Source of the DNA: a virus
DNA: 64,000 nucleotides
Virus record (IMG/VR): IMGVR_UViG_3300021085_000019
Span: 19,653-83,652 of that record
Reading direction: 5' to 3' (one strand)
Below are positions 11,731-64,000 of this stretch, one piece after another. Position numbers and translations under genes: made by a program. Position 1 is the first letter of the stretch. Every line of letters begins with the position of its first letter. The notes beneath the pieces are model-generated. The model did not search any database, was not told where the DNA came from, and saw nothing but the letters and a program-made list of their open reading frames with translations.

Positions 11731-11734
11731 TATG

Positions 11735-11742
11735 TATAAATA
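11735..11742 (+). promoter_or_regulatory. Late promoter box TATAAATA
   Basis: Exact T4-type late box just after the stop codon of the 2602-residue fibre and 39 bp before the ATG of the next fibre at 11782. Confidence 0.75.
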
Positions 11743-11781
11743 GTATTATAATTTAACCGTGGACAGTGAAACGGAGTACAC

Positions 11782-14700
11782 ATGGCAACAGATCATAACT
11801 TTAAGGTCAAAAACGGCCTTGCCGTAGAAGGCGCAGATTTAAAAATAACCGGGGACGGAAACGATACTCGAATAGAATCAGGTGGAGAAATCAGATTTCG
11901 ACCTGAAGGTTCTTCATCGAATAAAGTCAGAATTACGTTAAACGAACTTGAAGTCTCAGGTTCCATTGACGCATCTGCAGATCTAAAAACAAATAACACA
12001 ACTCGTATTAATTCTTCCGGAGGCTTTACTCTAGGCAGTGGATCCATGACTGGTCCGGTTACAATTTCACCTCCAAGTGGACAAAATACCGTATTAAATC
12101 TAAACGGAGCATTAGATACGTTCTTAGAAAAGGACACTGGTAGCCACTTTTATATTGCTAATAATGTTGAAGATAAAGACATAAAATTTAGAATTAATAA
12201 CGGTGGAACTCAAAAAATTCCATTAACAATACACGGACAATCTGGCACAGTAGATTTAACTGGCGATTTAGATGTGTCTGGAGATCTCGCAGTTTCCGGC
12301 GATTTAAATATTACAGGTGATATCAATTCAGTTAGCACTACTGATTTGGATATTACAGATAAGACTATTACATTATCAAAGGGATCAACTAGTTCTTCAA
12401 CCTCTGATGGCGCAGGTATTATTATTGAAGGTCCGTCACCTGCACCTGAACTAAAATACCAACATTCGAATGCCAGATGGACGTTAAATAAAGAAGTATT
12501 TACTCCGTCAGGATTTATGATTGGTACAACATCTACTGATGTTGGATTGATGAGAAATAGTTCAGGCGTATTTGATTTCCAAGCTCAATCAGGTCGTGAA
12601 ATTTCATTTAGTAATGCTACTAATGGTGAACATGTAAGAATTGATGCTGACGGCAAAGTTGGTATCGGAACAGATAACCCAGGTGTTAATTTACAAATTA
12701 ATGATAGTACTACTACTCAAACTAATTCCGAATTTAGAATTTACGGATATGATACGGGAACTAGTGATGCAAAATATGGTAGAATTTTTATTGATAGTGG
12801 CGGTAATTTAAATGTTGCGGCTCAGGATAGTTATTTAATATTGACCTCAGGAAATTATATCCAAGCAAATGATACGCTCTACGCATTAGAATCTATATTA
12901 ATGCGCAACAACAAAAAGATTCAGATGGCTGGTAGTGATGGTGGCTTTAATGGAGTAATGAATGTTAGCACAAGTGACGTCGTTCAAGTTGGAGGTGTTA
13001 GTGGTTGGGGTGGTACAATTGGCCAGCTAGCTCTTTATAGTAATGATGGCGAAGCTGTTCGTATAGATGAAAATCAATGGGTCGGAATAGGAACTAATGA
13101 TCCATCTAGAAAGCTTCATGTTTATCAGAACAATGGAACTAATGTAGTTGCAGCATTTGAGTCAAACGACGCGCAAGTGTGGATTGATTTACGTGACTCT
13201 AATAGCACTAGTTATGGCGGAAGTGCTTATGGATGTTTACTGGGTCATGATCCTGTTAACGATCATTTGTTTATAGTTGCTGACGGCAACGTAACTAAAC
13301 ATTTTGTAGTAGATAATACAGGAAATGTTGGTATAGGAACTAGCGACCCTAAAACAGATTTGCACGTATTAGGAGCTTCGGGAAATGCTCAAGCTACAAC
13401 TGTCCGATTAGGCGGCGATGGCGCAAATGGAAATCATACTCCTAAGCTAGAATTTACAGAAGGTACAACCGGCACAAGCATGAATTTTGGATTTTCGCTT
13501 TTAGCCGATGGCAATAGCAGTAATAATTTCCTTATAAGGAATCATAATAGTAGCACTGGCGGAGCTGTTGCAATTTGTGTTGACCGTGCAACAGGATTTG
13601 TTGGAATAGGAAATAATTCGGGATCACCTAAGTCCAGGCTTGATATTAACTCAAGTGGAGATAATTTTGTATATTTAAATTATACAAGAAGTACTGGTGG
13701 AACAAATGAAAAGTATTGGAGATCTGGAATTGAAACAAATCACAGGTTTGCAATTGGTAAAGTTAACGACGCATATAATAGCTTATCCGAGTATCTAACA
13801 ATACTTAGTGGTGGTAATGTTGGTATTGGCATTAATAATCCATCTGAAAAATTAGAAGTCAATGGAAATATAAAGGCTGATACATTAAAAATCGATAATA
13901 TAGTATTTGAAGATGAAGATGGATCTCCTACTGATAGTATTACCGCATCTACGGAATGGGATGGAACAAATTCAACACTTTCATTCGAAGGTTCGGCTGG
14001 ACAATTATTTGCCATTAGTAATAACTTAACTGGAACTATATTCTCTGTAAATGACATTTCAGGTATTCCAAGTATTGAAGTTGAAGATGACGGAGAAATT
14101 CGTTTTGCTGAGTTTGGTGGATATGTAAAAATCGGACATGACTCATCAGTTCCCGGCCAAGAAGCGCCTCTCATCGTAACTAAAACACAGGGAACTTTAC
14201 CACCGGCTCCAGACACTCCAAGTAAAAACGTTGCAGTGTTTCAAAATAATTCAACTGCCGGAGAATATTCAATTATTTCGATTATTGGTGGTAATACCGG
14301 TAGATCATCTATTCATTTAGGTGATACTGATGACGATAATGCTGGAGCTATATACTATACACATAACGATAACAAATTACATTTTAGAACTAATAGTTCC
14401 GGTGATGATGTTCAAATAGAAAGTGATGGCACGTTAAATATTTCAACCGGTGATTTACGTTTAGGCGTTGGTAAAAAGTTTTATATGGGCGGTAGTAATC
14501 ATACATATATCAGCGAAGACATCGATGACAGATTACGATTCTTCACTGGTGGCCAAGAGTTTATGAGATTCACTGAGGCTGGAACAGACACAGTAAACTT
14601 CTACACGCCAGTTTCTTCATCAGGTACTATTACCGCTCCGGCTCTAAACGGTACGGATAGTACAAATAATGTCGGGTTTAATATTGCAACAGACAGCACT

Positions 14701-17700
14701 AGTAACGGTAGAGCATTTATAATTTTAGATAGTGATTCAACCGATGGCGTTGGAGTTGGAAGTGATTATACGTATATTGGTTCAGATTATGCTTCCTTTA
14801 GAGGCTGGGTAAGTGCCGGACAAAATGGTGCTTCAGGCGGCGTAAGGGTTTCTGACGGAAGTGGCACAGCTCCTACATTGTCATTTGCTGATAGAACTGA
14901 CACTGGTTTATGGGCTCAAGATTATAGTACCGGCGAAGACAGAGTAATGATAAGTACTGGAGGTTCTATTAGAGCTGAGGTTCAAAGTGCGGGTGTTTAT
15001 TCATATGCAAATGTATATGCTGTTAATGAGTTTAGAAATATTACTAATACCTGGAAAGCAACTACGTCTCAAGTTTCCCAAGATTTTCAGTTTATAGGTA
15101 ACACAAGCAATACTCCTGTGACAATAATGCATTTAGATACCGGCAACGCAAACGTTGGTATTGGCACGACTAGTACAGATTCTACGTATAAACTTCAAAT
15201 TGCTGGAGCTCAGCGTACTACAGTTACTGGTTCTAACACGGTGGCCGGTTGGTTTGAAAATACAGACGATCATGATTATAATATTAGAATTGTACCAAAG
15301 CTTTCATCGGGAGGTTATAATCCAATAACTTCTACTGGAGACTCTGGAATAATTTTCTCAACCGATAACGACCATACTAATGCTGTTGATAATAATGGAT
15401 TAATTATTGCGCCACATAGTGATGAAAAAGGTGGGTTGTATATTGCGGAAAGCGGTAACGTTGGTATTAATGTAAGAAATACTGGGTCTCAGGCTTTATG
15501 GGTAGAAATTCCAACTGCGCAGCAAAGTGATACAAATCTAGTAGCATATTTTAAATCTCACAATAATAAAGCGTGTATTCAAATTACAGATAATGATACA
15601 ACTGCAGTTGTATCAGCTGAAGGCACTAGGATGTCTTTAGGTGGTCAACAAGGTGTTCATGCAAATAACGTAAATATTAACACTTCAAATGCAAATACAG
15701 GAATAGGTATTATTACTGGTAGTGATGGTGATTTAAGCTTAAATGTGCCGCGGCTTCATGTAAAAGCTGATACTCAGCAGGGTGTTAATGCGTTAGTCGC
15801 TAGATTTGAAGCTGGTAATGATAATGATAATACCGGCGCAGCAATTCTCATCAACCATTCAAATGATAGAGGATTGTTAATTGAAGGCGGTAGATCTAAC
15901 TCGGATAGAGCAATAGCACATTTGGGTCTTGTCACTTCAGGTGGTGATCACAATCGCGTTTTGACAATTAGACAAGACGGAAGTAATTACTGGGCAGGTA
16001 TTGGCACAGAAGTTCCTGAAGCGCTTTTACACGTAAAGGCTGCTAGTGGAACTACAGCAACTATAAGAATCGAAGGCGGCAGCAACACTGTTTCTGCAAG
16101 CGGCGAAATAAATTCTCAACTTGACTTTGGTTCAAATGATGGTTCTGTAAACAGCGCTGGCCAAGTTGGAGGTAGAATAGCAAGTGTTACCGAAAATACA
16201 AACGGCGCTTACACTGGAATGGCGTTTTATACCTTCACACAAAGCGGGTCTCCTGATTTAGCTGAGAAAATGCGAATCAGGTACGATGGTAGTGTTGGAA
16301 TTGGAGAGGCCTCTCCAACAACTGGAAAGCTTGTAGTAAATGGTAATACTAATCAGTATACACTTAGACTAAATGGTGGAACTTCATCCGGAACTAGCTA
16401 TGGTGCTAGGATACGTGCCGGAACTAATACTTCTGATTATGGATTAATAGTTGAAAATACAAGCGCGGGCCCGCAGTTTGCTGTTAGAGGTGATGGCCAT
16501 GTAGGTATTGGAACTAATGACCCTATCGATCAATTTCATTTAAAAAGTTCCAGTGGTGATGCAAGGATGGTTCTTGAATCTCCAGTAGATTCCGATTGTG
16601 AAATTAAACTTTCAGAGAATGGAACGGTAAAATTCACTGTTGGATTTAATGCAGCAGATGATACATTTAGAATAGGAACTACTAACGTAGACACAAACCC
16701 AAGGATGGCTATCACTTCGGCCGGTAAAGTTGGATTTGGTAGAGAAAATCCGCATAATAAATTTCATGTAATTGGCGATGGACGTTTTGAAGGAAACCTA
16801 ATGACGGGAAGTGCCTCGTATACTAACGTTCCCGCTAAGGCAATTCATATTAAAGATAGTGGCGATAACGCATGTCTAAGAATAGAAGACTCTACTGGCA
16901 GTAATAAAGTTTATGATTTTAGAGTAAATACTGGAGCTGGTTTAAAAATTATTGACCAAGGGACAGTAGGAACGGGGAATAACGTAAGATTTAGAATTGA
17001 AGACGATGGTAAGGTTGGTATTGGCAACTTCCCAACAACTAATAACAATTCTAATAATCATGATTCAATTGCTCCTGCGGCAAGGCTTCACGTATATGAT
17101 ACTGGTGGCGGTGGAACAGAAAAGCCATTAATGATATTAGAAAATTATATCGGCGATCATGGTACTACACCTTCTAAAGTAAGTATTGATATAAGAAACC
17201 AAGACAGTAATAATAATCCTAACAGAGTATCATTAAAAAATGTCACCGTCAATTCTACGACTTATGGAGTAAACGATGAAGCTGCTGCTCACTTTGTTAT
17301 TGGACTAAGTAAAGGTGGAAATGTTATAGAAAGAGCAATGTTCCATGCTGACGGTCATATGTCTATTGGTACTTCAATGTTTAATCCGTATACTCACGTG
17401 AACACCGGATCTTACTTTAAACCAAAAACAAATGTAACTAGTAATAGAACTTTATCAATCGGGGGTGGTGATGCAGGCGCTGATATTAGTTTAGTTTCTA
17501 GTACTACATCTGATGATGGACACGTTGGTGGATTATTTTTTACTTCTACTGCTGGTGCAACTGATGCGCATAAACAATTAGCCGGTATAGATTGTGTATA
17601 TGATAAACATGCAACTAGTGACGCGGTAAGTGGTGGTCATTTAAGATTCTTTACTAAACCTACTGGATCTGGTATTAATAGTCCAAGAATGTGGATACAC

Positions 17701-18360
17701 CAAAATGGTAATATCTACATGAAAAATCAGAGTGGTTCAGATGTGGTAGCATTTGATGCACAAAACTCTAGATTTAACTGTGATTGGTTTGGTGGTTATC
17801 AATATGCAGCCAATTCGTTCCTAGATTTTGATAATGACTCACCTGGTAGTAGTGGATCTAATGGTGTTCATTTGGCGTCAGTTGCTGGTATGGACTTTAC
17901 TATTGACTCAAATAACAATGGGACAGCTGATGAATTTACCTGGCGCGTCAACTCGCCTACAGCGTCAACCGGCACTGAGTTGATGAGCTTAGACAGCGAC
18001 GGTGATTTAACAGTTACTGGAGCTCTTGCCGCAACAACAAAATCATTTGATATTGAGCATCCAACAAAAGAGGGTAAGAGATTACATCATGGTGTTCTTG
18101 AAGGACCCGAGCATGCAGTATATATTAGAGGAAAAACAAAAGAATCAATCATTCAATTGCCTGAATATTGGAATGGGCTAGTTCATGAAGATACTATAAC
18201 TGTTCAGCTTACAGCAATTGGCCGGTCAGAATATCTTTATGTCGACGGCATTAAAGATAACACTGTAAGTATTTCTAATGACACTGAATATTTTTACTTT
18301 ATACAAGCCGAGCGTAAAGATGTCGAAAGGTTTGAGGTAGAATATGACGACGTCGACTAA
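11782..18360 (+). CDS. Giant tail fibre with VGIGT-type repeats and non-S74 C-terminal domain (2192 aa)
   Basis: Starts at ATG after AACGGAG. The N-terminus (MATDHNFKVKNGLAVEGADLKITGDG) differs from that of the previous fibre. About 13 VGIGTxxPxxKLHV-type repeats are spread through it (for example VGIGTDNPGVNLQIND, VGIGTNDPSRKLHVYQ, VGFGRENPHNKFHVIG). Residues ~170-240 hold the shared LNITGDIN...TDLDITDKTIT module. The last ~100 residues form a separate domain, with DIEHPTKEGKRLHHGVLEGPE, AVYIRGK, LPEYWNGLV and ITVQLTAIG. This ending is known from many phage fibres, and I infer that it replaces S74 as folding or tip domain. The 3' end overlaps the next gene by 17 nt, so this fibre and the lectin-fold cluster that follows are co-translated. 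Confidence 0.87.
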   Translation: MATDHNFKVKNGLAVEGADLKITGDGNDTRIESGGEIRFRPEGSSSNKVRITLNELEVSGSIDASADLKTNNTTRINSSGGFTLGSGSMTGPVTISPPSGQNTVLNLNGALDTFLEKDTGSHFYIANNVEDKDIKFRINNGGTQKIPLTIHGQSGTVDLTGDLDVSGDLAVSGDLNITGDINSVSTTDLDITDKTITLSKGSTSSSTSDGAGIIIEGPSPAPELKYQHSNARWTLNKEVFTPSGFMIGTTSTDVGLMRNSSGVFDFQAQSGREISFSNATNGEHVRIDADGKVGIGTDNPGVNLQINDSTTTQTNSEFRIYGYDTGTSDAKYGRIFIDSGGNLNVAAQDSYLILTSGNYIQANDTLYALESILMRNNKKIQMAGSDGGFNGVMNVSTSDVVQVGGVSGWGGTIGQLALYSNDGEAVRIDENQWVGIGTNDPSRKLHVYQNNGTNVVAAFESNDAQVWIDLRDSNSTSYGGSAYGCLLGHDPVNDHLFIVADGNVTKHFVVDNTGNVGIGTSDPKTDLHVLGASGNAQATTVRLGGDGANGNHTPKLEFTEGTTGTSMNFGFSLLADGNSSNNFLIRNHNSSTGGAVAICVDRATGFVGIGNNSGSPKSRLDINSSGDNFVYLNYTRSTGGTNEKYWRSGIETNHRFAIGKVNDAYNSLSEYLTILSGGNVGIGINNPSEKLEVNGNIKADTLKIDNIVFEDEDGSPTDSITASTEWDGTNSTLSFEGSAGQLFAISNNLTGTIFSVNDISGIPSIEVEDDGEIRFAEFGGYVKIGHDSSVPGQEAPLIVTKTQGTLPPAPDTPSKNVAVFQNNSTAGEYSIISIIGGNTGRSSIHLGDTDDDNAGAIYYTHNDNKLHFRTNSSGDDVQIESDGTLNISTGDLRLGVGKKFYMGGSNHTYISEDIDDRLRFFTGGQEFMRFTEAGTDTVNFYTPVSSSGTITAPALNGTDSTNNVGFNIATDSTSNGRAFIILDSDSTDGVGVGSDYTYIGSDYASFRGWVSAGQNGASGGVRVSDGSGTAPTLSFADRTDTGLWAQDYSTGEDRVMISTGGSIRAEVQSAGVYSYANVYAVNEFRNITNTWKATTSQVSQDFQFIGNTSNTPVTIMHLDTGNANVGIGTTSTDSTYKLQIAGAQRTTVTGSNTVAGWFENTDDHDYNIRIVPKLSSGGYNPITSTGDSGIIFSTDNDHTNAVDNNGLIIAPHSDEKGGLYIAESGNVGINVRNTGSQALWVEIPTAQQSDTNLVAYFKSHNNKACIQITDNDTTAVVSAEGTRMSLGGQQGVHANNVNINTSNANTGIGIITGSDGDLSLNVPRLHVKADTQQGVNALVARFEAGNDNDNTGAAILINHSNDRGLLIEGGRSNSDRAIAHLGLVTSGGDHNRVLTIRQDGSNYWAGIGTEVPEALLHVKAASGTTATIRIEGGSNTVSASGEINSQLDFGSNDGSVNSAGQVGGRIASVTENTNGAYTGMAFYTFTQSGSPDLAEKMRIRYDGSVGIGEASPTTGKLVVNGNTNQYTLRLNGGTSSGTSYGARIRAGTNTSDYGLIVENTSAGPQFAVRGDGHVGIGTNDPIDQFHLKSSSGDARMVLESPVDSDCEIKLSENGTVKFTVGFNAADDTFRIGTTNVDTNPRMAITSAGKVGFGRENPHNKFHVIGDGRFEGNLMTGSASYTNVPAKAIHIKDSGDNACLRIEDSTGSNKVYDFRVNTGAGLKIIDQGTVGTGNNVRFRIEDDGKVGIGNFPTTNNNSNNHDSIAPAARLHVYDTGGGGTEKPLMILENYIGDHGTTPSKVSIDIRNQDSNNNPNRVSLKNVTVNSTTYGVNDEAAAHFVIGLSKGGNVIERAMFHADGHMSIGTSMFNPYTHVNTGSYFKPKTNVTSNRTLSIGGGDAGADISLVSSTTSDDGHVGGLFFTSTAGATDAHKQLAGIDCVYDKHATSDAVSGGHLRFFTKPTGSGINSPRMWIHQNGNIYMKNQSGSDVVAFDAQNSRFNCDWFGGYQYAANSFLDFDNDSPGSSGSNGVHLASVAGMDFTIDSNNNGTADEFTWRVNSPTASTGTELMSLDSDGDLTVTGALAATTKSFDIEHPTKEGKRLHHGVLEGPEHAVYIRGKTKESIIQLPEYWNGLVHEDTITVQLTAIGRSEYLYVDGIKDNTVSISNDTEYFYFIQAERKDVERFEVEYDDVD

Positions 18361-52751: not shown

Positions 52752-53009
52752 ATGGATCGCAATGAAGTTTCGCGTCTTATTGACGCACTTAAAAAAGGTA
52801 CTGTAACGGTCACCTTTCAGAAAATTGACTCTGACGAAATACGAGTCATGCCCTGCACTCTCAACCCTACTGTACTACAAGCGCACGGAATGAAATCCGT
52901 GATTGAAAGCGTTAGTCCTGAAACCGAGCACATTGCTGCATGGTCTCTAGACAAAGAAGCGTGGAGATCATTTCGCGTTAACACAGTTATTGGTTGGGAG
53001 GTATTATAA
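52752..53009 (+). CDS. WYL_2/DUF2693 Sm-like SH3 beta-barrel protein (85 aa)
   Basis: Protein of 85 residues from the ATG at 52752; an in-frame GTG further upstream falls inside the terminator stem and is not credible. The sequence TVTVTFQKIDSDEIRVMPCTLNPTVL and the ending AAWSLDKEAWRSFRVNTVIGWEVL are the pattern of the WYL_2 (formerly DUF2693) Sm-like SH3 barrel family, with the MPCTLNP and WRSFRV landmarks. The family is widespread in phages, with unknown ligand. Its stop codon overlaps the gp44 start (TAATG), so it is coupled to the clamp loader. Confidence 0.8.
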   Translation: MDRNEVSRLIDALKKGTVTVTFQKIDSDEIRVMPCTLNPTVLQAHGMKSVIESVSPETEHIAAWSLDKEAWRSFRVNTVIGWEVL

Positions 53010-53944
53010 TGTCAGAATTTCTTTGGGTTGAAAAATATCGTCCACAAAAAATTCAAGACTGCATTTTACCAAAATCAATCAAGAAAACTTTTGAAGATAT
53101 TGTTAAAGGAGGTGACCTACACAATATGCTTCTTACCGGAACAGCCGGCCTGGGTAAAACAACAGTCGCGAAAGCTTTATGTAACGAACTTGAACTAGAT
53201 TATCTTCTGATCAATGGATCCGAAGAATCTGGCATTGATACTCTGCGCAACAAGATCAAACAATTTGCATCTACAGTTTCACTTCAAGGTGGCTACAAAG
53301 TAGTTATTTTGGATGAAGCAGATTATCTTAACGCTCAATCAACGCAACCTGCATTACGTGGTTTTATTGAAGAGTTCTCAAATAACTGTCGATTTATATT
53401 GACATGTAATTTCAAGAACAGAATCATTGAACCCTTGCATTCACGTTGTACTACCATTGAGTTTAACGTTTCTAAGAAAGATTCAGTTCCACTTTGTGGA
53501 CAATTTCTCAAACGTTGTACATCAATCCTAACGGACGAAGGTATATCATTTGATGAAAAGGTAGTTGCTGAACTTATTATGAAACACATGCCTGATTGGC
53601 GTAAAGTTCTAAATGAACTTCAACGTTACAGTAGTAGCGGTACTATTGATACAGGCATTTTAGTATCTTTATCGGAAGTCTCTCTTAATGATCTTATGAT
53701 TCACTTAAAAGAGAAAAACTTTAAAGGTATGCGTCAGTGGGTAAGTAATAATATTGATTCTGAACCTGCAGCAATTTATCGTAAAATTTATGATAATATG
53801 AATGACTATATTGATCCTCAGAGTATACCACAATTGGTACTTATTCTAGCGGATTATCAATACAAGAATTCTTTTGTTGCAGATCACGAATTAAATACTG
53901 TTGCTTGTCTTACTGAGGTAATGGCGGGGGTTCGTTTCAAATGA
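53009..53944 (+). CDS. gp44: Clamp loader large subunit gp44
   Basis: Protein of 311 residues (T4 319). The ATG at 53009 has GGGAGG seven bases upstream; the alternative TTG at 52994 would overlap that site. It shows FLWVEKYRPQKIQDCILP (the RFC-family start), Walker A GTAGLGKTTVAKAL (~42), Walker B VVILDEADYL (~100), sensor 1 ILTCNFKNRI and the SRC motif HSRCTTIEF with the arginine finger. With gp62 it opens the gp45 ring and loads it at primer ends. It overlaps gp62 by 4 nt. Confidence 0.96.
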   Translation: MSEFLWVEKYRPQKIQDCILPKSIKKTFEDIVKGGDLHNMLLTGTAGLGKTTVAKALCNELELDYLLINGSEESGIDTLRNKIKQFASTVSLQGGYKVVILDEADYLNAQSTQPALRGFIEEFSNNCRFILTCNFKNRIIEPLHSRCTTIEFNVSKKDSVPLCGQFLKRCTSILTDEGISFDEKVVAELIMKHMPDWRKVLNELQRYSSSGTIDTGILVSLSEVSLNDLMIHLKEKNFKGMRQWVSNNIDSEPAAIYRKIYDNMNDYIDPQSIPQLVLILADYQYKNSFVADHELNTVACLTEVMAGVRFK

Positions 53945-54321
53945 ACCCCTTCGATTATCTAAACGCAATTAATGTAACAAAAAAGGATATAATGGTTGAT
54001 GATGTTTCTGAAAAAGCATATGCTCCATTTATGGTAAATCGTGGACTTTCTTATTTTCCTGACACTGTTCTTTTCGCTAATGAGATGAATGTAAATCATC
54101 ATATTGATCATCGTCTTCAATTTGATTTTTTTATAAATATAATTAACAAGAAGAAAAGATTTTCTAAATGGGCCAAACCCATTGACATAGAAAATTTAGA
54201 ATTAATAAAAGAATATTATGGATATAGTAATGAAAAAGCTAAATCTGTATTGTCATTATTAACTAATGATGAAATTAACGAATTGAAATTAAGGATTTAT
54301 AAAGGTGGAAAACGAAAATAA
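53941..54321 (+). CDS. gp62: Clamp loader small subunit gp62
   Basis: Protein of 126 residues (T4 187). The motif MVNRGLSYFPDTVLFANEMN and the following HRLQFDFFINIINKKKRFSKW are typical of gp62. It also has LIKEYYGYSNEKAKSVLSLL. The marine forms are shorter than T4. It is located between gp44 and RegA, as in T4, with overlaps of 4 and 17 nt. It is the non-ATPase subunit of the 4:1 gp44/gp62 loader. Confidence 0.93.
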   Translation: MNPFDYLNAINVTKKDIMVDDVSEKAYAPFMVNRGLSYFPDTVLFANEMNVNHHIDHRLQFDFFINIINKKKRFSKWAKPIDIENLELIKEYYGYSNEKAKSVLSLLTNDEINELKLRIYKGGKRK

Positions 54322-54739
54322 TATTGAAGTCCAGTGGACTCCTGCTTCTATGTTGGAGATCACGCTTAACGAACCAGACGATTTTCTAAAAATCAGAGAA
54401 ACATTAACACGTATTGGTGTAGCGTCTAGAAAAGATCAAAAGCTATATCAATCATGTCATATACTGCATAAACAGGGAAGGTACTTTATTGTACACTTTA
54501 AAGAGTTATTCCTACTAGATGGGAAACCTTCAAACCTATTACTAAACGACATTCAACGTAGAAATACAATTGCTACGTTATTGGCAGACTGGGGGCTTAT
54601 TACTTTTGTTAGCTCTGAACAAGCTAAAGATATTGCACCGTTAAGGCAGATTAAAGTTATTCCATATAAGGAAAAAACACAATGGCAACTATGTCCTAAA
54701 TATAATATAGGAAATAGTAACAATGGAGAAAAAACTTAA
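54305..54739 (+). CDS. regA: Translational repressor RegA
   Basis: Protein of 144 residues if translation starts at GTG 54305, which has AAGG ten bases upstream. From residue 16 (MLEITLNEPDDFLKIRETLTRIGVASRK) it matches the start of T4 RegA (MIEITLKKPEDFLKVKETLT), and the core KLYQSCHILHKQGRYFIVHFKELF and RRNTIATLLADWGLI is conserved. The ATG at 54350 has no good ribosome binding site, so either start is possible. RegA binds early mRNAs near their start codons and blocks ribosomes. The C-terminal tail is extended relative to T4 (122 residues). Confidence 0.93.
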   Translation: MENENNIEVQWTPASMLEITLNEPDDFLKIRETLTRIGVASRKDQKLYQSCHILHKQGRYFIVHFKELFLLDGKPSNLLLNDIQRRNTIATLLADWGLITFVSSEQAKDIAPLRQIKVIPYKEKTQWQLCPKYNIGNSNNGEKT

Positions 54740-54900: not shown

Positions 54901-55353
54901 ATGGTAAGAAGTACTATGAACGTACCACGTTCACTTTTCATTGGATTTGATCCAATATTAAACGAGCTTGAAAGAATTCACTCAGCTGGAAGATCTCAAG
55001 ATAACTATCCCCCACACAACGTTGTGAAGATCGATAATGATAACTTCAATATCGAACTCGCTGTTGCAGGATTTTCGGAAGAAGACATTTCTGTAGAAGT
55101 AAAGGATGGTATTCTATTAGTTAAAGGTCAACAAAGTGATGATGATCGTGAATACGCACACAAAGGTATCTCGTCCCGCAAATTTGAGAAGTCCTTCCGA
55201 CTCTCAGAATTTGTCGTAATAGATGGGGCCGATCTCGTGAACGGCATACTTGTGGTGAATGCCAGAGTTGAAGTTCCAGAAGAGAGGCGTCCTAGGAAGA
55301 TCGAAATCGGGTCTGCTGGGGCATCAAAGAAGAAGGAATTTATCCAAGATTAA
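54901..55353 (+). CDS. hsp20: Small heat shock protein, Hsp20/IbpA type
   Basis: Protein of 150 residues. The alpha-crystallin domain runs from ~residue 38 to 128 (PPHNVVKIDNDNFNIELAVAGFSEEDISVEVKDGILLVKG, with the AGF hallmark, then FEKSFRLSEFVVIDGADLVNGILVV). The N-terminus RSLFIGFDPILNELERI is that of IbpA. Marine T4-like phages commonly encode Hsp20, which is expected to keep capsid or host proteins from aggregating. The ribosome binding site is strong (ATAGGAGGAAA) and expression is late, from a structured leader. Confidence 0.93.
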   Translation: MVRSTMNVPRSLFIGFDPILNELERIHSAGRSQDNYPPHNVVKIDNDNFNIELAVAGFSEEDISVEVKDGILLVKGQQSDDDREYAHKGISSRKFEKSFRLSEFVVIDGADLVNGILVVNARVEVPEERRPRKIEIGSAGASKKKEFIQD

Positions 55354-55634: not shown

Positions 55635-58151
55635 ATGAACATAAAATTCTATACAAACGTTTCTCGATACGGCAACTCGCTAATGTATCGTGGTTATAAA
55701 AACGGCAAAAAGATTCAAACAAAAATTAAATATCAACCTACTTATTTTGTAAGTACGGCCAAACCGTCTGCGTGGAAATCACTAGATGGTAATAACGTAT
55801 CACCAATTAAATTCGAATCTATGCGTGATGCAAAAGAATGGCTAAAGGTGAACGAGCATGTTGTTGGTAGACATATCTACGGAAACAACAAACACATTCC
55901 AGCTTTTATCAATGATGAATTTCCAGGTGAAATTAAATTTGATAGAAATCTAATTAACGTAACAACGATCGATATCGAGGTTCAATCCGACGCAGGATTT
56001 CCTGAACCAGAACACGCAGCGCATGAAGTTACTGCTATCTGTATGAAAAACAATATTGATAATACATTCTACGTATGGGGTTTAAAAGACTATGATGTAG
56101 AATCTTCGATCATGCAAGAAAACAGAGTTGTCTATAAGAAGTGCGCAACAGAATCTGAACTACTACTTGAATTTATTGCGCATTGGTCTTTACCTTCACA
56201 TTGTCCAGATGTTATTACGGGTTGGAACTCTCGATTCTTTGATATGCCATATCTGATTAATCGTATCATTAAAATACATGGCGAAGATATAGTTCGTAGA
56301 ATATCTCCATGGGGATTACTAGATCGACGTGATGTAACAACAATGCAACGTAAACAAATTGCATATGATATTCAAGGCATTGCTCAAATGGATTACCTTG
56401 ATTTATTTCGTAAGTTTGGCTATTCCTATGGTCCACAAGAATCTTATAAACTTGATCATATTGCTTCAGTTGTACTTGGTGAGAAAAAGCTAAGCTATGA
56501 AGAACACGGTAACTTGCATACGCTTTATAAGCATGATCATCAAAAGTTTATCGACTATAATATTAAAGACGTAGATCTTGTTGATCGCTTCGAGGATAAG
56601 ATGGGACTTATTACTCTAGCACTTACTATGGCGTATCGTGGTGGTGTAAACTACAGCGATGTTATGGGTACTACTGCAATATGGGATGCTATCATATTCC
56701 GAAATCTATATTCTAATAATGTAATTATTCCGTTTGGAGAAGAAAAGTTTAAAACCCCATATCCTGGTGGTTATGTGAAAGATCCACATGTTGGAATGCA
56801 CGAATGGGTTGTTTCTTTTGATCTTAATTCCCTGTATCCGTCTATTATTATGCAGTACAATATGTCACCAGAAACAATTATATCTGGTAAAGTTGCTAAC
56901 GTAAATGTAGACAATCTACTTACTGGAGAACTTAAACCGCGGCTCGAACAAGGCGAATGCGCTTCGGCTTCAGGTCAATACTTTAAAACAGATGAACAAG
57001 GTATCTTACCTAAAATCATTGACGAAATGTATAGTGAGCGTGTTGTCATTAAAAAGCAAATGATTAATTCGCAACGAGAGCTTGAAAGGATAGACAAAAA
57101 TGATAAACAAGAATTATACCGAGTACAGCGTGATATCGCTATAGCAGAAAATCAACAAATGTCTATTAAGATCCTTCTTAATTCTCTTTATGGTGCTTTG
57201 GGCAACAAGTACTTTAGATTCTTCGATCAGCGAATCGCAGAAGGAATTACGCTTACTGGACAGCTTACAATACGATGGGCTGAAAAAGCAATTAATAATT
57301 ACCTCAACTCAGTGCTTAAAACAAAGAAAGACTACGTCCTTGCTATTGATACCGACTCGGTGTATGTATGCTTAGACGATCTTGTATCTGCAGTAAATCC
57401 TAAAAACCCATTAGAATTTGTCGATACAGTTTGCAAAGAAAAGCTTGAAGACGTCCTAGAAAAATCTTATGGTGAATTGTTTGACATTATGGGTGGTATC
57501 GAAAATCGTATGGTAATGAAACGTGAAGCTATTGCTGACCGTGGTATATGGACTGCCAAAAAGCGGTATATCCTAAACGTGCTTGACAATGAAGGAGTAC
57601 GTTATGCCGAACCTAAACTTAAGATTATGGGTATCGAAGCTATTAAGTCTTCTACTCCGGCTCCTTGTCGAGAAGCTCTAAAAGAAATATTTAAAACAAT
57701 TATCGGTGGTACTGAACGTGATGTTCAAGGTAATATTGAATCATTCAGAACATATTTTAAAACATTATCACCAGATCAGATTGCATTCCCTCGAGGTATT
57801 ACAAATCTGACACAATTCAGAGATAAGCAAACTGTATACAAAAAAGGTACTCCGATTCATGCACGTGGCGGAATACTGTATAACAAAATGCTTAAAGATC
57901 TTTCATTAGATAAACAATACAACAAAATTCAGAATGGCGAGAAAATTAAATTCATATATCTCAGAACGCCAAATCATATCAAAGAGAATGTCATATCATT
58001 CCTTGACTATTTGCCGGAAGAGTTTGGATTGCATCGTTATATTGATTATGATACTCAGTTCAATAAAACCTTCCTTGATGTTATTGATCCGATACTATCA
58101 GCAGTTGGATGGAATTCAAAAGAAGTTGCAACACTCGACGAATTCTTTTAA
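55635..58151 (+). CDS. gp43: Family B DNA polymerase gp43
   Basis: Protein of 838 residues (T4 898). The 3'-5' exonuclease has Exo I TIDIEVQSD (~113), Exo II ITGWNSRFFDMPYL (~200) and Exo III YNIKDVDLV (~307). The polymerase has motif A SFDLNSLYPSIIMQYN (~394), motif B ILLNSLYGALGNKYFR (~513), motif C AIDTDSVYV (~570) and KKRYIL (~640). The C-terminal end (LDEFF) is a clamp-binding type tail like that of T4. It is driven by its own promoter after a terminator and lies downstream of RegA, which in T4 represses gene 43-region mRNAs. Confidence 0.97.
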   Translation: MNIKFYTNVSRYGNSLMYRGYKNGKKIQTKIKYQPTYFVSTAKPSAWKSLDGNNVSPIKFESMRDAKEWLKVNEHVVGRHIYGNNKHIPAFINDEFPGEIKFDRNLINVTTIDIEVQSDAGFPEPEHAAHEVTAICMKNNIDNTFYVWGLKDYDVESSIMQENRVVYKKCATESELLLEFIAHWSLPSHCPDVITGWNSRFFDMPYLINRIIKIHGEDIVRRISPWGLLDRRDVTTMQRKQIAYDIQGIAQMDYLDLFRKFGYSYGPQESYKLDHIASVVLGEKKLSYEEHGNLHTLYKHDHQKFIDYNIKDVDLVDRFEDKMGLITLALTMAYRGGVNYSDVMGTTAIWDAIIFRNLYSNNVIIPFGEEKFKTPYPGGYVKDPHVGMHEWVVSFDLNSLYPSIIMQYNMSPETIISGKVANVNVDNLLTGELKPRLEQGECASASGQYFKTDEQGILPKIIDEMYSERVVIKKQMINSQRELERIDKNDKQELYRVQRDIAIAENQQMSIKILLNSLYGALGNKYFRFFDQRIAEGITLTGQLTIRWAEKAINNYLNSVLKTKKDYVLAIDTDSVYVCLDDLVSAVNPKNPLEFVDTVCKEKLEDVLEKSYGELFDIMGGIENRMVMKREAIADRGIWTAKKRYILNVLDNEGVRYAEPKLKIMGIEAIKSSTPAPCREALKEIFKTIIGGTERDVQGNIESFRTYFKTLSPDQIAFPRGITNLTQFRDKQTVYKKGTPIHARGGILYNKMLKDLSLDKQYNKIQNGEKIKFIYLRTPNHIKENVISFLDYLPEEFGLHRYIDYDTQFNKTFLDVIDPILSAVGWNSKEVATLDEFF

Positions 58152-58210: not shown

Positions 58211-58486
58211 ATGAAAATAGTTAGACTAACAACAGGTGACGAAGTTATCTGTAATGTTGAAGAAACCGAAAACACTATTGCTATGACAGATGCGTTTTCT
58301 ATGATAGCTACCGAGCCAGGAAAAATCGGATTTATTCCGTTTATGGCTTATGCTAAAAATGAAGAATTTATTGTTGATAAGCAATTTGTAGTTATGATTT
58401 TAGATCCGGTCGAAGAAATCGTAGATCAAATTAGATCTATGACGAGCGGAATCGTTACACCACCAAAACAGGGAATTATAGTATGA
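58211..58486 (+). CDS. Sm-like small beta-barrel protein, paralogue of 43939-44310
   Basis: Protein of 91 residues: MKIVRLTTGDEVICNVEETE, then a stretch with DAFSMIATEPGKIGFIPFM, then DKQFVVMILDPVEEI. It aligns end to end with the first ~75 residues of the 123-residue protein at 43939 (LT.G...IC.V..T; A......P..I.F; F.I.K.FV). The pattern suggests an Sm/Lsm-like fold and possible RNA or protein binding. It leads a compact operon with the MazG-like and primase-like genes, overlapping the next gene by 4 nt (ATGA). The ribosome binding site is TAGGAGA. Confidence 0.68.
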   Translation: MKIVRLTTGDEVICNVEETENTIAMTDAFSMIATEPGKIGFIPFMAYAKNEEFIVDKQFVVMILDPVEEIVDQIRSMTSGIVTPPKQGIIV

Positions 58487-58893
58487 GCACCGACTGGGTA
58501 AATGACATTGAAGTCATGCAGGATAAGTTTGAAACTCTTGAATGGGTTTTTAATAATAAAGAAAACAAAGACAAGCTAAAAGCTTTTCTTAAATTCAGAA
58601 TTGATTTTCTACAAGAAGAACTTGATGAAACTAAGAAGGCATATGAAACTATGGACGGTGAAGAAATCGTTGATGGTTTAATCGATTTATGTGTTGTTGC
58701 AATTGGAACCTTAGATGCTTTTGGCGTGGATGCGTACAAAGCATGGGATGAAGTTCTTAAAGCAAATATGTCAAAAAATGTTGGCGTTAAAGAAGGCCGA
58801 CCTAATCCGTTGGGACTTCCCGATCTTATGAAACCTGAAGGTTGGACAGCTCCATCACACGAAGGTAACCATGGTATCTTTGACGATCTTTGA
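58483..58893 (+). CDS. MazG-like nucleotide pyrophosphohydrolase
   Basis: Protein of 136 residues, helical. The metal-binding pattern of the all-alpha NTP pyrophosphatases is seen in FRIDFLQEELDETKKAYET (EExxE type) and EIVDGLIDLCVVAIGTLDAFG (ExxD type), followed by KAWDEVLKANMSKNVG, a typical ending of phage members (K...N.SK). Such enzymes hydrolyse NTPs or (p)ppGpp-like nucleotides. It overlaps both neighbours (4 nt upstream, 23 nt downstream), so it is part of a coupled operon. Confidence 0.82.
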   Translation: MSTDWVNDIEVMQDKFETLEWVFNNKENKDKLKAFLKFRIDFLQEELDETKKAYETMDGEEIVDGLIDLCVVAIGTLDAFGVDAYKAWDEVLKANMSKNVGVKEGRPNPLGLPDLMKPEGWTAPSHEGNHGIFDDL

Positions 58894-61288: not shown

Positions 61289-61594
61289 ATGAAATTTGAT
61301 GAAGGCAAAGCTCCATTAGCTTTAATTCCACCAGAAGCATTATTAGAAATCGCAGAAGTATTCGGCTTCGGCGCAGAAAAGTATGGCGTAAACAACTGGC
61401 GTGATGATGGTGATTCAACCAGTAAGCTACGAACTTATTCTTCAATACAACGACATCTTAACGCATGGCATGCAGGCGAAGATCTAGATCCAGAATCTGG
61501 TAAAACACATTTATCCCATGCCGCAACACAACTAATGATTCTGATGATGCACTGTATGGAGCATCCGGAACTTGACGATAGGTACAAAAAATGA
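61289..61594 (+). CDS. DUF5664 family protein (possible dATP/dGTP diphosphohydrolase)
   Basis: Protein of 101 residues. It reads MKFDEGKAPLALIPPEALLE, FGFGAEKYGVNNWRDDGDS, SSIQRHLNAWHAGEDLDPES and THLSHAATQLMILMMHC. This is the DUF5664 pattern 'K.D.GK.pl.liP..al...a.v..fGa.KYg..NWr...s.....Ra..RHl.aw..GEd.DpESG..HlaHa..N'. Members related to MazZ hydrolyse purine dNTPs. The charged metal-binding set (E, H, E, D, H) is visible. It heads an operon for deoxynucleotide pool control, overlapping the next gene by 4 nt. Confidence 0.75.
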   Translation: MKFDEGKAPLALIPPEALLEIAEVFGFGAEKYGVNNWRDDGDSTSKLRTYSSIQRHLNAWHAGEDLDPESGKTHLSHAATQLMILMMHCMEHPELDDRYKK

Positions 61595-62268
61595 TTTATA
61601 TAAACGCAATTAGAGAACACTTCAAACAGGAACTAGCAAATGAAAATTTTGTTATAGATCGTAATGGCGGTAAGACTATCGAATTGTTAGGTGCATCATT
61701 CCATGCATCGGAGCCTGCAATATTTGGTAAACCAAATGAAGAATATATTAAAGCGGAAATTGAATGGTATGAGTCACAGTCGACAAACATTAACGACATC
61801 TACAGGACAAAAAGTAGTCACGTTGGTTTAAGAAAGGCAACACCTGCCGCATGGGTAATGACCGCAAATGATCATGGTGAAATTAATTCAAACTATGGTC
61901 ATCTTATTTTCAGTGACAAGTATCACAATCAATTTGATCAAGTTGTAAATGAGTTACGTAAAAATAAAGATTCTCGTAGAGCATCAATGGTATATCAACG
62001 CCCATCAATTTGGCTTGAATACAATGATCAAGGTAAAAACGATTTTATTTGCACTAATTCAGTTACGTATTATATTCGCGATGATGTTTTACACTGTGTA
62101 GTTCAAATGCGTTCTAACGATGTTATATTTGGATACCGTAATGATTATGCATGGCAAGAGTACGTGTTATGCGAACTAGCAGACGAACTTGGTGTTGATG
62201 ATGGTGAAATATATTGGCAAGTGCAGAACCTTCATGTTTATGAACGTCATTTTGATTTGGTGAAGTAA
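61591..62268 (+). CDS. Thymidylate-synthase-fold enzyme, predicted dCMP hydroxymethylase (or methylase)
   Basis: Protein of 225 residues. It aligns with E. coli thymidylate synthase and T4 gp42: SRRASM (Arg pair ~129-130), catalytic Cys154 in DFICTNSVTYYIRDDVLHC, VQMRSNDVIFGYRNDYAW, and NLHVYERH (His215/Tyr217). Counting from the catalytic Cys to the base-recognition position gives 31 residues, as in both relatives. At that place thymidylate synthase has Asn177 and dCMP hydroxymethylase has Asp179; here it is Asp185. By the known rule this predicts dCMP rather than dUMP as substrate, with a C5-hydroxymethyl or methyl product. It is coupled to dCMP deaminase by one base (TAATG). Confidence 0.82.
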   Translation: MIYINAIREHFKQELANENFVIDRNGGKTIELLGASFHASEPAIFGKPNEEYIKAEIEWYESQSTNINDIYRTKSSHVGLRKATPAAWVMTANDHGEINSNYGHLIFSDKYHNQFDQVVNELRKNKDSRRASMVYQRPSIWLEYNDQGKNDFICTNSVTYYIRDDVLHCVVQMRSNDVIFGYRNDYAWQEYVLCELADELGVDDGEIYWQVQNLHVYERHFDLVK

Positions 62269-62729
62269 TGAGCTGGGATAGTGCAAAAACTTATAAATGG
62301 GATAAACGCTATTTAGCTTTAGCAGAACATATCTCGACCTGGTCAAAAGATCCATCAAAGAAGATTGGTGCTGTGGCCGTTGGTGAAAAGGGACAAGTAT
62401 TGGCTCAAGGTTATAATGGATTCCCTCGAGGAATCGATGATCAAGAATCAATGTACGAAAATAAAGTTATTAAATATCAGCATGTTGTTCATGCAGAGAT
62501 GAATTGTATATATAATGCTACATACAATGGAACGTCACTTGATGGAGCTACAATGTATATACACGGATTACCGGTTTGTTCAGAATGTGCAAAGGGCATT
62601 ATTCAAGTCGGTATTAAAAGGGTAGTGACTGAGGAGATACAAACATCTACGCCAGAACGTTGGGTAGAGTCGACTCAGTTAACTAAAAAAATGTTTGATG
62701 AAGCCGGAGTTATTTACGACTTTATCTAA
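62268..62729 (+). CDS. Deoxycytidylate (dCMP) deaminase
   Basis: Protein of 153 residues. The zinc site is complete: HAEMN (His75 and catalytic Glu77) and LPVCSECAKG (Cys104, Cys107). Further landmarks are DPSKKIGAVAV, AQGYNGFPRGIDD and GATMYIHGLPVC. It makes dUMP from dCMP for thymidine synthesis. It starts on the stop codon of the thymidylate-synthase-fold gene, so the two enzymes compete for, or share, dCMP. The allosteric region of larger family members is present in part (residues 48-65). A tRNA gene follows. Confidence 0.93.
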   Translation: MSWDSAKTYKWDKRYLALAEHISTWSKDPSKKIGAVAVGEKGQVLAQGYNGFPRGIDDQESMYENKVIKYQHVVHAEMNCIYNATYNGTSLDGATMYIHGLPVCSECAKGIIQVGIKRVVTEEIQTSTPERWVESTQLTKKMFDEAGVIYDFI

Positions 62730-62737
62730 AGCGTTAT

Positions 62738-62814
62738 GCGCTTGTAGCTCAGCTGGATAGAGCATCGGCCTTCTAAGCCGAGGGTCTCAGGTTCGAATCC
62801 TGACAGGCGCGCCA
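62738..62814 (+). tRNA. tRNA-Arg (anticodon UCU), CCA encoded
   Basis: Full cloverleaf: acceptor GCGCTTG with CAGGCGC, D stem GCTC/GAGC, anticodon stem TCGGC/GCCGA with loop CTTCTAA (anticodon TCT), T stem TCAGG/CCTGA with TTCGAAT loop, discriminator G and an encoded CCA. It reads AGA, an arginine codon used often throughout this window, and so supports translation of this AT-rich genome. Confidence 0.97.
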
Positions 62815-63069: not shown

Positions 63070-63300
63070 ATGGCAACAAAAAATGATATAACTGGAGATT
63101 CTATTAAATCCAAAGGTCTATCTAAAAAAGGTAAAGATAACTGGGATAAGATTTTTGGTAAGAAAGATATAAAGGTACGTAAGACCACGCCTGATCATGG
63201 TAATACACAAGTCCATAAAGACAAAAGTAAATATGATCGCAAGTCTTATAAAGATGAAATTAGATCTCAGCAAGATCTTAACTGGGATGGTAATGACTAA
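63070..63300 (+). CDS. Basic hypothetical protein (76 aa)
   Basis: Protein of 76 residues, very rich in Lys and Asp (KSKGLSKKGKDNWDKIFGKK, HKDKSKYDRKSYKDEIRSQQ), with no hydrophobic core, so it is probably disordered. It may bind nucleic acid. The sequence is Lys-rich with few aromatic residues. It overlaps the next gene by 8 nt. Function is unknown. Confidence 0.6.
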   Translation: MATKNDITGDSIKSKGLSKKGKDNWDKIFGKKDIKVRKTTPDHGNTQVHKDKSKYDRKSYKDEIRSQQDLNWDGND

Positions 63301-63589
63301 AATGGTAGACTTTGATCCTAAAGAATTAAAGAATAGTAAAAGGATATTTAAAAGTGCAACTCCTAAATATACATTAGATTGGTATATTAAATGGATAGCT
63401 TCTGTATTTGTTTTATCTGCTATGTCCATGAGGGGAATTGAAGGATACCAGACTTATGATGTAGTTCTATCAATTATAGGCATTTTGCTGTGGTTAATAG
63501 TGTCTATTTTATGGAAAGATCGTGCACTCATACTTCTCAATGGTGTAGGATTATTATTTTTAGTGAGGAATTTGTTTACGATACTATGA
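63293..63589 (+). CDS. Small multi-pass membrane protein (98 aa)
   Basis: Protein of 98 residues if it starts at ATG 63293; another ATG nine bases later is also possible. A polar, basic N-terminus (~30 residues) precedes three hydrophobic segments: WIASVFVLSAMSM, VVLSIIGILLWLIVSILW and ALILLNGVGLLFLVRNLF. It should span the inner membrane about three times. A role in lysis or in membrane take-over is possible but not shown. It overlaps the last gene of the window by 4 nt. Confidence 0.65.
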   Translation: MTKMVDFDPKELKNSKRIFKSATPKYTLDWYIKWIASVFVLSAMSMRGIEGYQTYDVVLSIIGILLWLIVSILWKDRALILLNGVGLLFLVRNLFTIL

Positions 63590-64000
63590 TAAAAACTGAA
63601 TATTATTATGACTTTTTAAAGTACTTTAAACTTGCAAAAGATCAACAGATTAAGTGTAATGTGCCAAACTTTATGCCACACCGTGAAAGCAATATGAATG
63701 ACGATCTAATGGAAAACGTAGAACTATATGATGTAGTTGAACGTAAGTACGCAGGATTCTCTCAGATCATAAATGATATTTTTTACGGATGGACTGATAA
63801 ACATCCATATTGGGATAGAATGCAAGCAGGAGAAGCAACTGCTCAAAGGGAGTTGATCGCAAAAAACTGGACTGGTAAGACTCATTCTCTTGAGACTTGG
63901 TTATATCTTTTTATTCTACATAGAGTTACAGGTTCTGCTATCAATTACGGAACTAAACCATCTGGATATCATAACACATTACTGTTTAAACTTCATCTAG
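63586..64000 (+). CDS. Conserved phage protein, possible DNA-base hypermodification enzyme (3' partial)
   Basis: Open to the window end; 138 residues are seen. Landmarks are YAGFSQIINDIFYGWTDKHP, RELIAKNWTGKTHSLETWLY and LFILHRVTGSAINYGTKPSG followed by YHNT. I associate the HR.TGS.INYG...SGY.NT pattern with a family described as alpha-glutamyl/putrescinyl-thymine pyrophosphorylase-like (linked to base hypermodification), but I cannot verify this without a search. It lies downstream of the predicted pyrimidine-modifying genes, which fits. Only the N-terminal part is available. Confidence 0.5.
   Translation, partial: MIKTEYYYDFLKYFKLAKDQQIKCNVPNFMPHRESNMNDDLMENVELYDVVERKYAGFSQIINDIFYGWTDKHPYWDRMQAGEATAQRELIAKNWTGKTHSLETWLYLFILHRVTGSAINYGTKPSGYHNTLLFKLHL

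Follow-up and report, generated by a model that had tools for sequence, protein, structure and literature searches.

A T4 gp42-type dCMP hydroxymethylase gene beside an exchangeable cassette locus points to 5-hydroxymethylcytosine-derived DNA in uncultured, probably marine T4-like phages

Near the right end of a 64,000-nucleotide stretch of viral DNA (the window; bases 19653-83652 of the 83,652-base record IMGVR_UViG_3300021085_000019) lies a gene for a protein of thymidylate synthase fold, which raises the question of whether the enzyme acts on dUMP or on dCMP and, if on dCMP, whether the phage carries modified cytosine in its DNA. A sequence-only reading of the window had argued for dCMP, on the basis of an aspartate at the position of the thymidylate synthase asparagine, and had proposed either 5-hydroxymethyl-dCMP or 5-methyl-dCMP as the product and modified virion DNA with an anti-restriction role. 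The genes on which the present analysis draws are the following.

52994..54739, +: gp44, gp62-like gene and regA, in T4-like replication order
55635..58151, +: gp43 DNA polymerase, the upstream anchor of the locus
58483..58893, +: MazG/PRA-PH-type nucleotide pyrophosphohydrolase, a second candidate dCTP-pool enzyme (domain matches)
61289..61594, +: PF18909 dATP/dGTP diphosphohydrolase-type protein, a candidate dCTP-pool enzyme (4-base overlap with the gp42 start)
61591..62268, +: gp42-type putative dCMP hydroxymethylase with Cys154 as nucleophile, Asp151, Asp185 and Glu56 (Pfam, PDB and phage-collection searches, alignment)
62268..62729, +: dCMP deaminase, PF00383/PF14437 (domain matches; 1-base overlap with the gp42 stop, TAATG)
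62738..62814, +: tRNA-Arg (TCT), between deaminase and cassette
63197..63589, +: small conserved membrane-like reading frame (cluster 7), between deaminase and cassette in relatives
63586..64000, +: first cassette gene, N-terminal 138 aa, cut by the contig end (cluster 39, AADT-like; 98% identical to L005:12248-13420)

The DNA polymerase is closest to those of Kyanoviridae (C48C1, 51%; cyanophages, 46-47%), matches to the major-capsid region come from cyanophages and Methylophilales phages, the gp44 and regA clusters match T4, and the gp62-like cluster matches the clamp-loader gene of C48C1. For comparison, 80 related viral loci were taken from the 477 places found in one scan to encode a relative, and their genes were clustered (L numbers below denote loci); the related contigs are probably marine. 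Their gene order is gp43, further genes, an NTP-pyrophosphatase-type gene, gp42, dCMP deaminase, a variable cassette, uvsX, gp41 and, in part, ThyX, within which gp43, a MazG-type pyrophosphohydrolase, gp42, the deaminase, uvsX and gp41 form a constant frame. This arrangement agrees with T4 and other T4-like phages and supports the gp42 assignment. In cyanophage S-ShM2, taken as a control, uvsX comes immediately after gp43 and there is no gp42 at the locus, and a search for gp42 returned no match in HTVC008M or C48C1, which agrees with the sequence-only view that modified cytosine is not what one would expect by default in marine T4-like phages.

No stop interrupts the open reading frame at 61591-62268 (+), whose product is 225 aa long. 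Cys154 and Asp185 occur where they had been claimed, 31 residues apart, and when the protein is aligned to T4 gp42 and to ThyA of E. coli they pair with Cys148/Asp179 and Cys146/Asn177, respectively. The likeness is not confined to the aspartate: the whole protein shares 51.2% identity with T4 gp42 vs. 22.2% with ThyA, and 53% with gp42 of Acinetobacter phage AB1I1M-1. T4 dCMP hydroxymethylase is the best PDB match (phmmer, E = 5e-63), a likeness well outside chance, with thymidylate synthases next at 1e-11 or worse. Among 50,697 phage records the best matches were gp42 proteins of T4-like phages and, because none exceeded about 51-53%, the clade has no close isolate in that collection. In a phylogeny the proteins join Straboviridae gp42, apart from ThyA; the basal branching is uncertain, and a distant protein from Microbacterium is placed within the gp42 group. 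Compared with relatives of 82-84% identity, dN is about 0.1 while dS is >1 or saturated, and the gene is therefore under purifying selection. The case for a gp42-type enzyme is thus stronger than the sequence-only reading, which had considered neither the protein as a whole nor its neighbourhood, had made it.

Database names tell a different story. Pfam (PF00303, E 7e-18, with catalytic Cys154 and Glu56 in place), PHROGs and many GenBank entries name such proteins thymidylate synthase, and the adjoining dCMP deaminase would make dUMP for an ordinary enzyme of this kind, converting dUMP to dTMP. The ThyA signature of Asn177, His147 and a Leu three residues before the Cys is nevertheless missing, with Asp185, Thr155 (the equivalent of T4 Thr149) and Asp151 in their place, and Asp185 is kept in 81/81 homologues. 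Substitution of the corresponding residue in T4 (D179N) lowers kcat up to about 3600-fold (PMC6400193), and relatives possess a separate ThyX (8 of 12 long records). Given these residues and the 51% vs. 22% identity, we reject ordinary thymidylate synthase as hardly credible. Judged by its sequence, the protein is of T4 gp42 type, a new member of a known family, and its orthology to T4 gp42, together with Asp185, speaks for the proposed preference for dCMP rather than dUMP.

Which product such an enzyme would release can be read against the T4 mechanism, in which Cys148 serves as nucleophile, base recognition and N3 protonation fall to Asp179 and cofactor activation to Glu60, and Asp145, with Ser94, activates the water that leads to a hydroxymethyl rather than a methyl product; where T4 has Asp145, thymidylate synthases carry Leu, and D145N abolishes product (PMC6400193). 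In the window and 81/81 homologues the residues invariant in T4 numbering are Glu60, Ser94, Tyr96, Arg123, Arg124, Asp145, Cys148, Thr149, Arg168, Ser169, Asp171, Asn178, Asp179, His216 and Tyr218. Asp151 (T4 Asp145), Ser100 (Ser94) and Tyr102 (Tyr96) of the window's protein are among the positions kept throughout. By analogy with the solved T4 mechanism, Cys154 would attack C6 of dCMP with CH2-THF as cofactor, Asp185 would recognise and protonate cytosine N3, and Asp151 would activate a water molecule, so that the exocyclic methylene becomes hydroxymethyl and 5-hydroxymethyl-dCMP is formed. A dCMP methylase, yielding 5-methyl-dCMP and DNA with 5mC, deserves consideration, keeping in mind that the Asn-to-Asp change alone confers dCMP methylation on a thymidylate synthase (PMC8670742). 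Set against it are the hydroxymethylase signature of Asp151, Ser100 and Tyr102, the effect of D145N in T4, and the T4-AGT and TAGT family neighbours in relatives, which would need a hydroxyl that 5mC lacks. We consider this reading very improbable and reject it on Asp151 and the neighbouring genes. Of the two products put forward in the sequence-only reading, 5-hydroxymethyl-dCMP is thus strongly favoured, Asp151, Ser100, Tyr102 and Thr155 all being present and the hydroxymethylase residue equivalents invariant in the 81 homologues, and 5-methyl-dCMP is not.

The immediate neighbours of the gene would supply its substrate and compete for it. dCMP deaminase lies just downstream of gp42 in 78 of 81 loci. 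The slot directly before gp42 holds a PF18909 gene in 38 loci and a DUF1599/Nmad1-type gene in 35, never both and in 8 neither, so that one of the two adjoins gp42 in 73/81. One member of the DUF1599-type family matches DUF1599, 'nucleotide modification associated domain 1', and another has no Pfam match; profile comparison of PF18909 with the DUF1599-type cluster or with gp56 found nothing. By analogy with gp56 in T4, the PF18909 and DUF1599-type genes may shape the dCTP/dCMP pool, the NTP pyrophosphatase-type neighbours probably removing dCTP and supplying dCMP. Going by family matches, the deaminase would divert part of the dCMP to dUMP, and the separate ThyX of relatives could make dTMP. 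5-Hydroxymethyl-dCMP would then be phosphorylated by some kinase and polymerised into phage DNA. The sequence-only reading had looked to the dCTPase gp56 and the hydroxymethyl-dCMP kinase gp1 as a check; phrog_139 gave no credible gp1 match in 12 records, all possibly incomplete, and the gp56-family search with phrog_173 was silent everywhere, controls included. A 228-aa AAA_33/zeta-like P-loop protein occurs in all four long relatives examined (e.g. L104:12740-13423) and was considered as the missing kinase. It was set aside as not specific, since HTVC008M, without a gp42 match, has such a protein too (L120:6584-7198). Separately, PHROG 2252 labels the PF18909 family (61289-61594) 'endolysin; inhibits RNA polymerase', a name that looks wrong.

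Between gp42 and uvsX, T4 carries β-glucosyltransferase and a homing endonuclease, and Klebsiella phage Roth77 has a glycosyltransferase between gp42 and its recombinase gene. This gap is complete in 46 of the relatives' loci (4.2-8.0 kb between the starts of gp42 and uvsX), and every one of the 46 holds a candidate DNA-modification gene: the TAGT family (PF20691; phrog_842, hmC α-glucosyltransferase) in 13, the amino acid:DNA-transferase (AADT)-like cluster 39 in 12, HMUDK-helical (PF18723, cluster 35) in 8, GTB45 in 7, the T4 α-glucosyltransferase (AGT) family, PF11440, in 4 and GT105 in 2, with weak GT support for both GTB45 and GT105. Genes for UDP-galactopyranose mutase and inositol-phosphate-synthase-like proteins accompany them, and galE-like and UGDH-like genes were read from the sequences and from C48C1 matches. 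In one cassette a serine hydroxymethyltransferase gene (L057:8657-9799; PF00464, E 2e-150), which could supply CH2-THF or glycine, stands between a PLP enzyme and the AADT-like gene. Because phages whose gp42 proteins are 92-96% identical have different cassettes, these sets of genes appear to be exchanged quickly. As a side observation, HMUDK-helical cassettes start with a myo-inositol-1-phosphate-synthase-like gene (PF01658; L040:9655-10932 and 25 relatives, cluster 23), for which a part in inositol-linked base modification is possible.

In T4, the characterised enzymes of the AGT and α-glucosyltransferase families use hmC in DNA as their substrate. Genes of such families (TAGT, AGT), candidates for an hmC-DNA glucosyltransferase, are found in relatives; the window, which ends in another type of cassette, shows none. 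Its own truncated gene belongs to cluster 39, and in the close relatives L005, L007, L009, L010 and L011 cluster 39 is followed by a PLP-dependent enzyme, cluster 21 and uvsX in turn, which suggests that the cassette of the window's phage is probably of the AADT-like/PLP-enzyme/SGNH-like type. A predicted structure for cluster 39 (pLDDT 67) matches at 62% identity a viral 'amino acid:DNA transferase domain-containing' protein in BFVD and shows weak fold matches to PhiW-14 and aGPT-PPlase proteins. The cluster gave no credible Pfam match in 11/11 members, no PDB fold match and nothing in profile comparison with cluster 35, and searching the PDB with profiles of clusters 39, 18 and 16 yielded nothing useful. 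Cluster 21 resembles SGNH hydrolases in its predicted structure; a β-glucosyltransferase-like identity for it, suggested by a weak PF09198 match, was rejected on a weak profile comparison and on the match of the predicted structure to SGNH/GDSL hydrolases.

On these predicted structures, amino-acid-decorated cytosine is possible in the window's phage. To our knowledge, amino-acid-derived hypermodification has so far been seen only on 5hmU-derived thymines. Tentatively, and with more doubt than confidence, we propose that in the window's lineage the AADT-like protein, PLP enzyme and SGNH-like protein may turn 5hmC in DNA into an amino-acid-derived 5-substituted cytosine, a new hypermodification, and that, more broadly, gp42-bearing marine T4-like phages may swap whole decoration cassettes (glucosyl, other sugar, inositol-linked or amino-acid-linked) at one locus, even at 92-96% gp42 identity.

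Independent support for modified cytosine comes from MetaGPA, in which modified-cytosine DNA was enriched from sewage and coastal samples (one of three samples being coastal); the strongest association there was with the thymidylate synthase domain, Asp replaced Asn177 on modified contigs, and PF01503, PF00383 and PF14437 were partner domains (PMC8670742). The window holds all four, PF00303, PF01503, PF00383 and PF14437, and this match to the domain set is, chemistry aside, the strongest ground for expecting modified cytosine here. Together with the modification-type genes that adjoin gp42 in relatives, T4 hmC-glucosyltransferase families included, it lends indirect support to the sequence-only proposal of modified cytosine in the virion. 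Since the phage has a genuine relative of the T4 enzyme, and its own relatives keep next to that gene exchangeable sets of genes apparently capable of decorating 5hmC further, chemically disguised DNA is very probable in these phages. Cumulatively, we put at roughly 85% the probability that a T4 gp42-type dCMP hydroxymethylase, pool enzymes and an exchangeable cassette whose products alter hmC on DNA together give 5hmC-derived, hypermodified phage DNA resistant to host nucleases; both hmC in virion DNA and the anti-restriction role are what we infer from these genes.

Alternatively, hm-dCMP may be made while cytosine is replaced only in part, or may serve mainly in pool control, with the cassette devoted partly to surface sugars. 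The results for gp1 (12 partial records) and gp56 (controls silent too) are compatible with this, as are the galE/epimerase and UGDH genes that C48C1 carries in the same gap with no gp42 match, because of which sugar genes alone prove nothing. C5-cytosine-methyltransferase homologues co-occur as well. The AGT and α-glucosyltransferase family genes that adjoin gp42, with T4 members acting on hmC in DNA, speak against it, as do the MetaGPA contigs, which had the same domain set and were cytosine-modified (PMC8670742). We regard partial replacement or pool control as unlikely and retain the reading of hypermodified, 5hmC-derived DNA.

Among known systems the closest is T4 itself, whose gp42 (PDB 1b49, 1b5d, 1b5e, 6a9b, 6a9a, 6l18) shares ~51% identity and all catalytic and specificity residues with the window's protein and also lies between gp43 and uvsX (43-imm-42-bgt-uvsX-40-41). 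In contrast to T4, Ile81/Val85 are replaced by Ala/Thr and Arg59 by Ala, a dCMP deaminase and an NTP-PPase-type gene overlap the gp42-type gene, no b-gt was found in the relatives' loci, and the gp1 and gp56 searches found no relative within the scope given above. AB1I1M-1 (42 - glucosyl transferase - b-gt - gp40 - 41), whose gp42 ranks with the nearest homologues found among the phage records (51-53%), likewise has glycosyltransferases after gp42, one in the same family as cluster 36; unlike the window, its stretch lacks a deaminase and an AADT-like gene. Two clusters are reminiscent of the thymine hypermodification enzymes (HMUDK, aGPT-PPlase, AADT; e.g. PhiW-14): cluster 35 matches the HMUDK helical Pfam domain, and cluster 39 is similar to a protein bearing the AADT name and, at a weak level, to PhiW-14 and aGPT-PPlase proteins. 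The known HMUDK/aGPT-PPlase/AADT systems act on 5hmU, whereas the partner here would be a dCMP, not a dUMP, hydroxymethylase. MetaGPA contigs combine a TS-fold protein bearing Asp177 with PRA-PH and dCMP deaminase domains and include a coastal sample, but the partner studied there was a 5hmC carbamoyltransferase, in place of the glycosyltransferase-, HMUDK-helical- or AADT-like cassettes seen here (PMC8670742). The general principle had already been published with MetaGPA; what appears new is a locus with exchangeable cassettes and, possibly, AADT-like chemistry acting on cytosine.

If our reading is correct, a widespread group of uncultured, probably marine T4-like phages (477 places encode relatives in one scan) has 5hmC-derived DNA, while the marine T4-like isolates checked (HTVC008M, C48C1 and, at the locus, S-ShM2) show no such gene. 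Genes that decorate cytosine would then be generally exchanged at the position of the T4 β-glucosyltransferase, which would provide a delimited set of candidate enzymes for novel base chemistries and help to explain why enzyme-based sequencing may under-sample such DNA. Our findings also suggest that 'thymidylate synthase' labels on such genes would hide a DNA-modification trait; pelagimyophage group C, described as having 'two different thymidylate synthases' (PMC7029224), possibly provides one such case.

Several further observations concern the wider locus. The C5-cytosine-methyltransferase homologues (PF00145, cluster 15) lie near uvsX in the gp42 cassettes of 39/81 loci (e.g. L037:16092-17297, motif CPCAGLS), an odd finding beside gp42 and hard to reconcile with complete C5 substitution. 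The CmoX 5-carboxymethylcytosine system of Synechococcus phage S-B43 is likewise a C5-MTase-fold enzyme in a marine phage (PMC12783734); unlike CmoX, the member examined here has CPC rather than the SPPC motif, and an identity as CmoX was rejected. An Hsp20-like gene (54901-55353) lies between regA and gp43; C48C1 has one at the same spot, and cyanophage S-ShM2 one close to that spot. Finally, the region 3922-18360 contains a pair of very long reading frames, of 2602 and 2192 aa, which probably encode structural or tail-fibre proteins.
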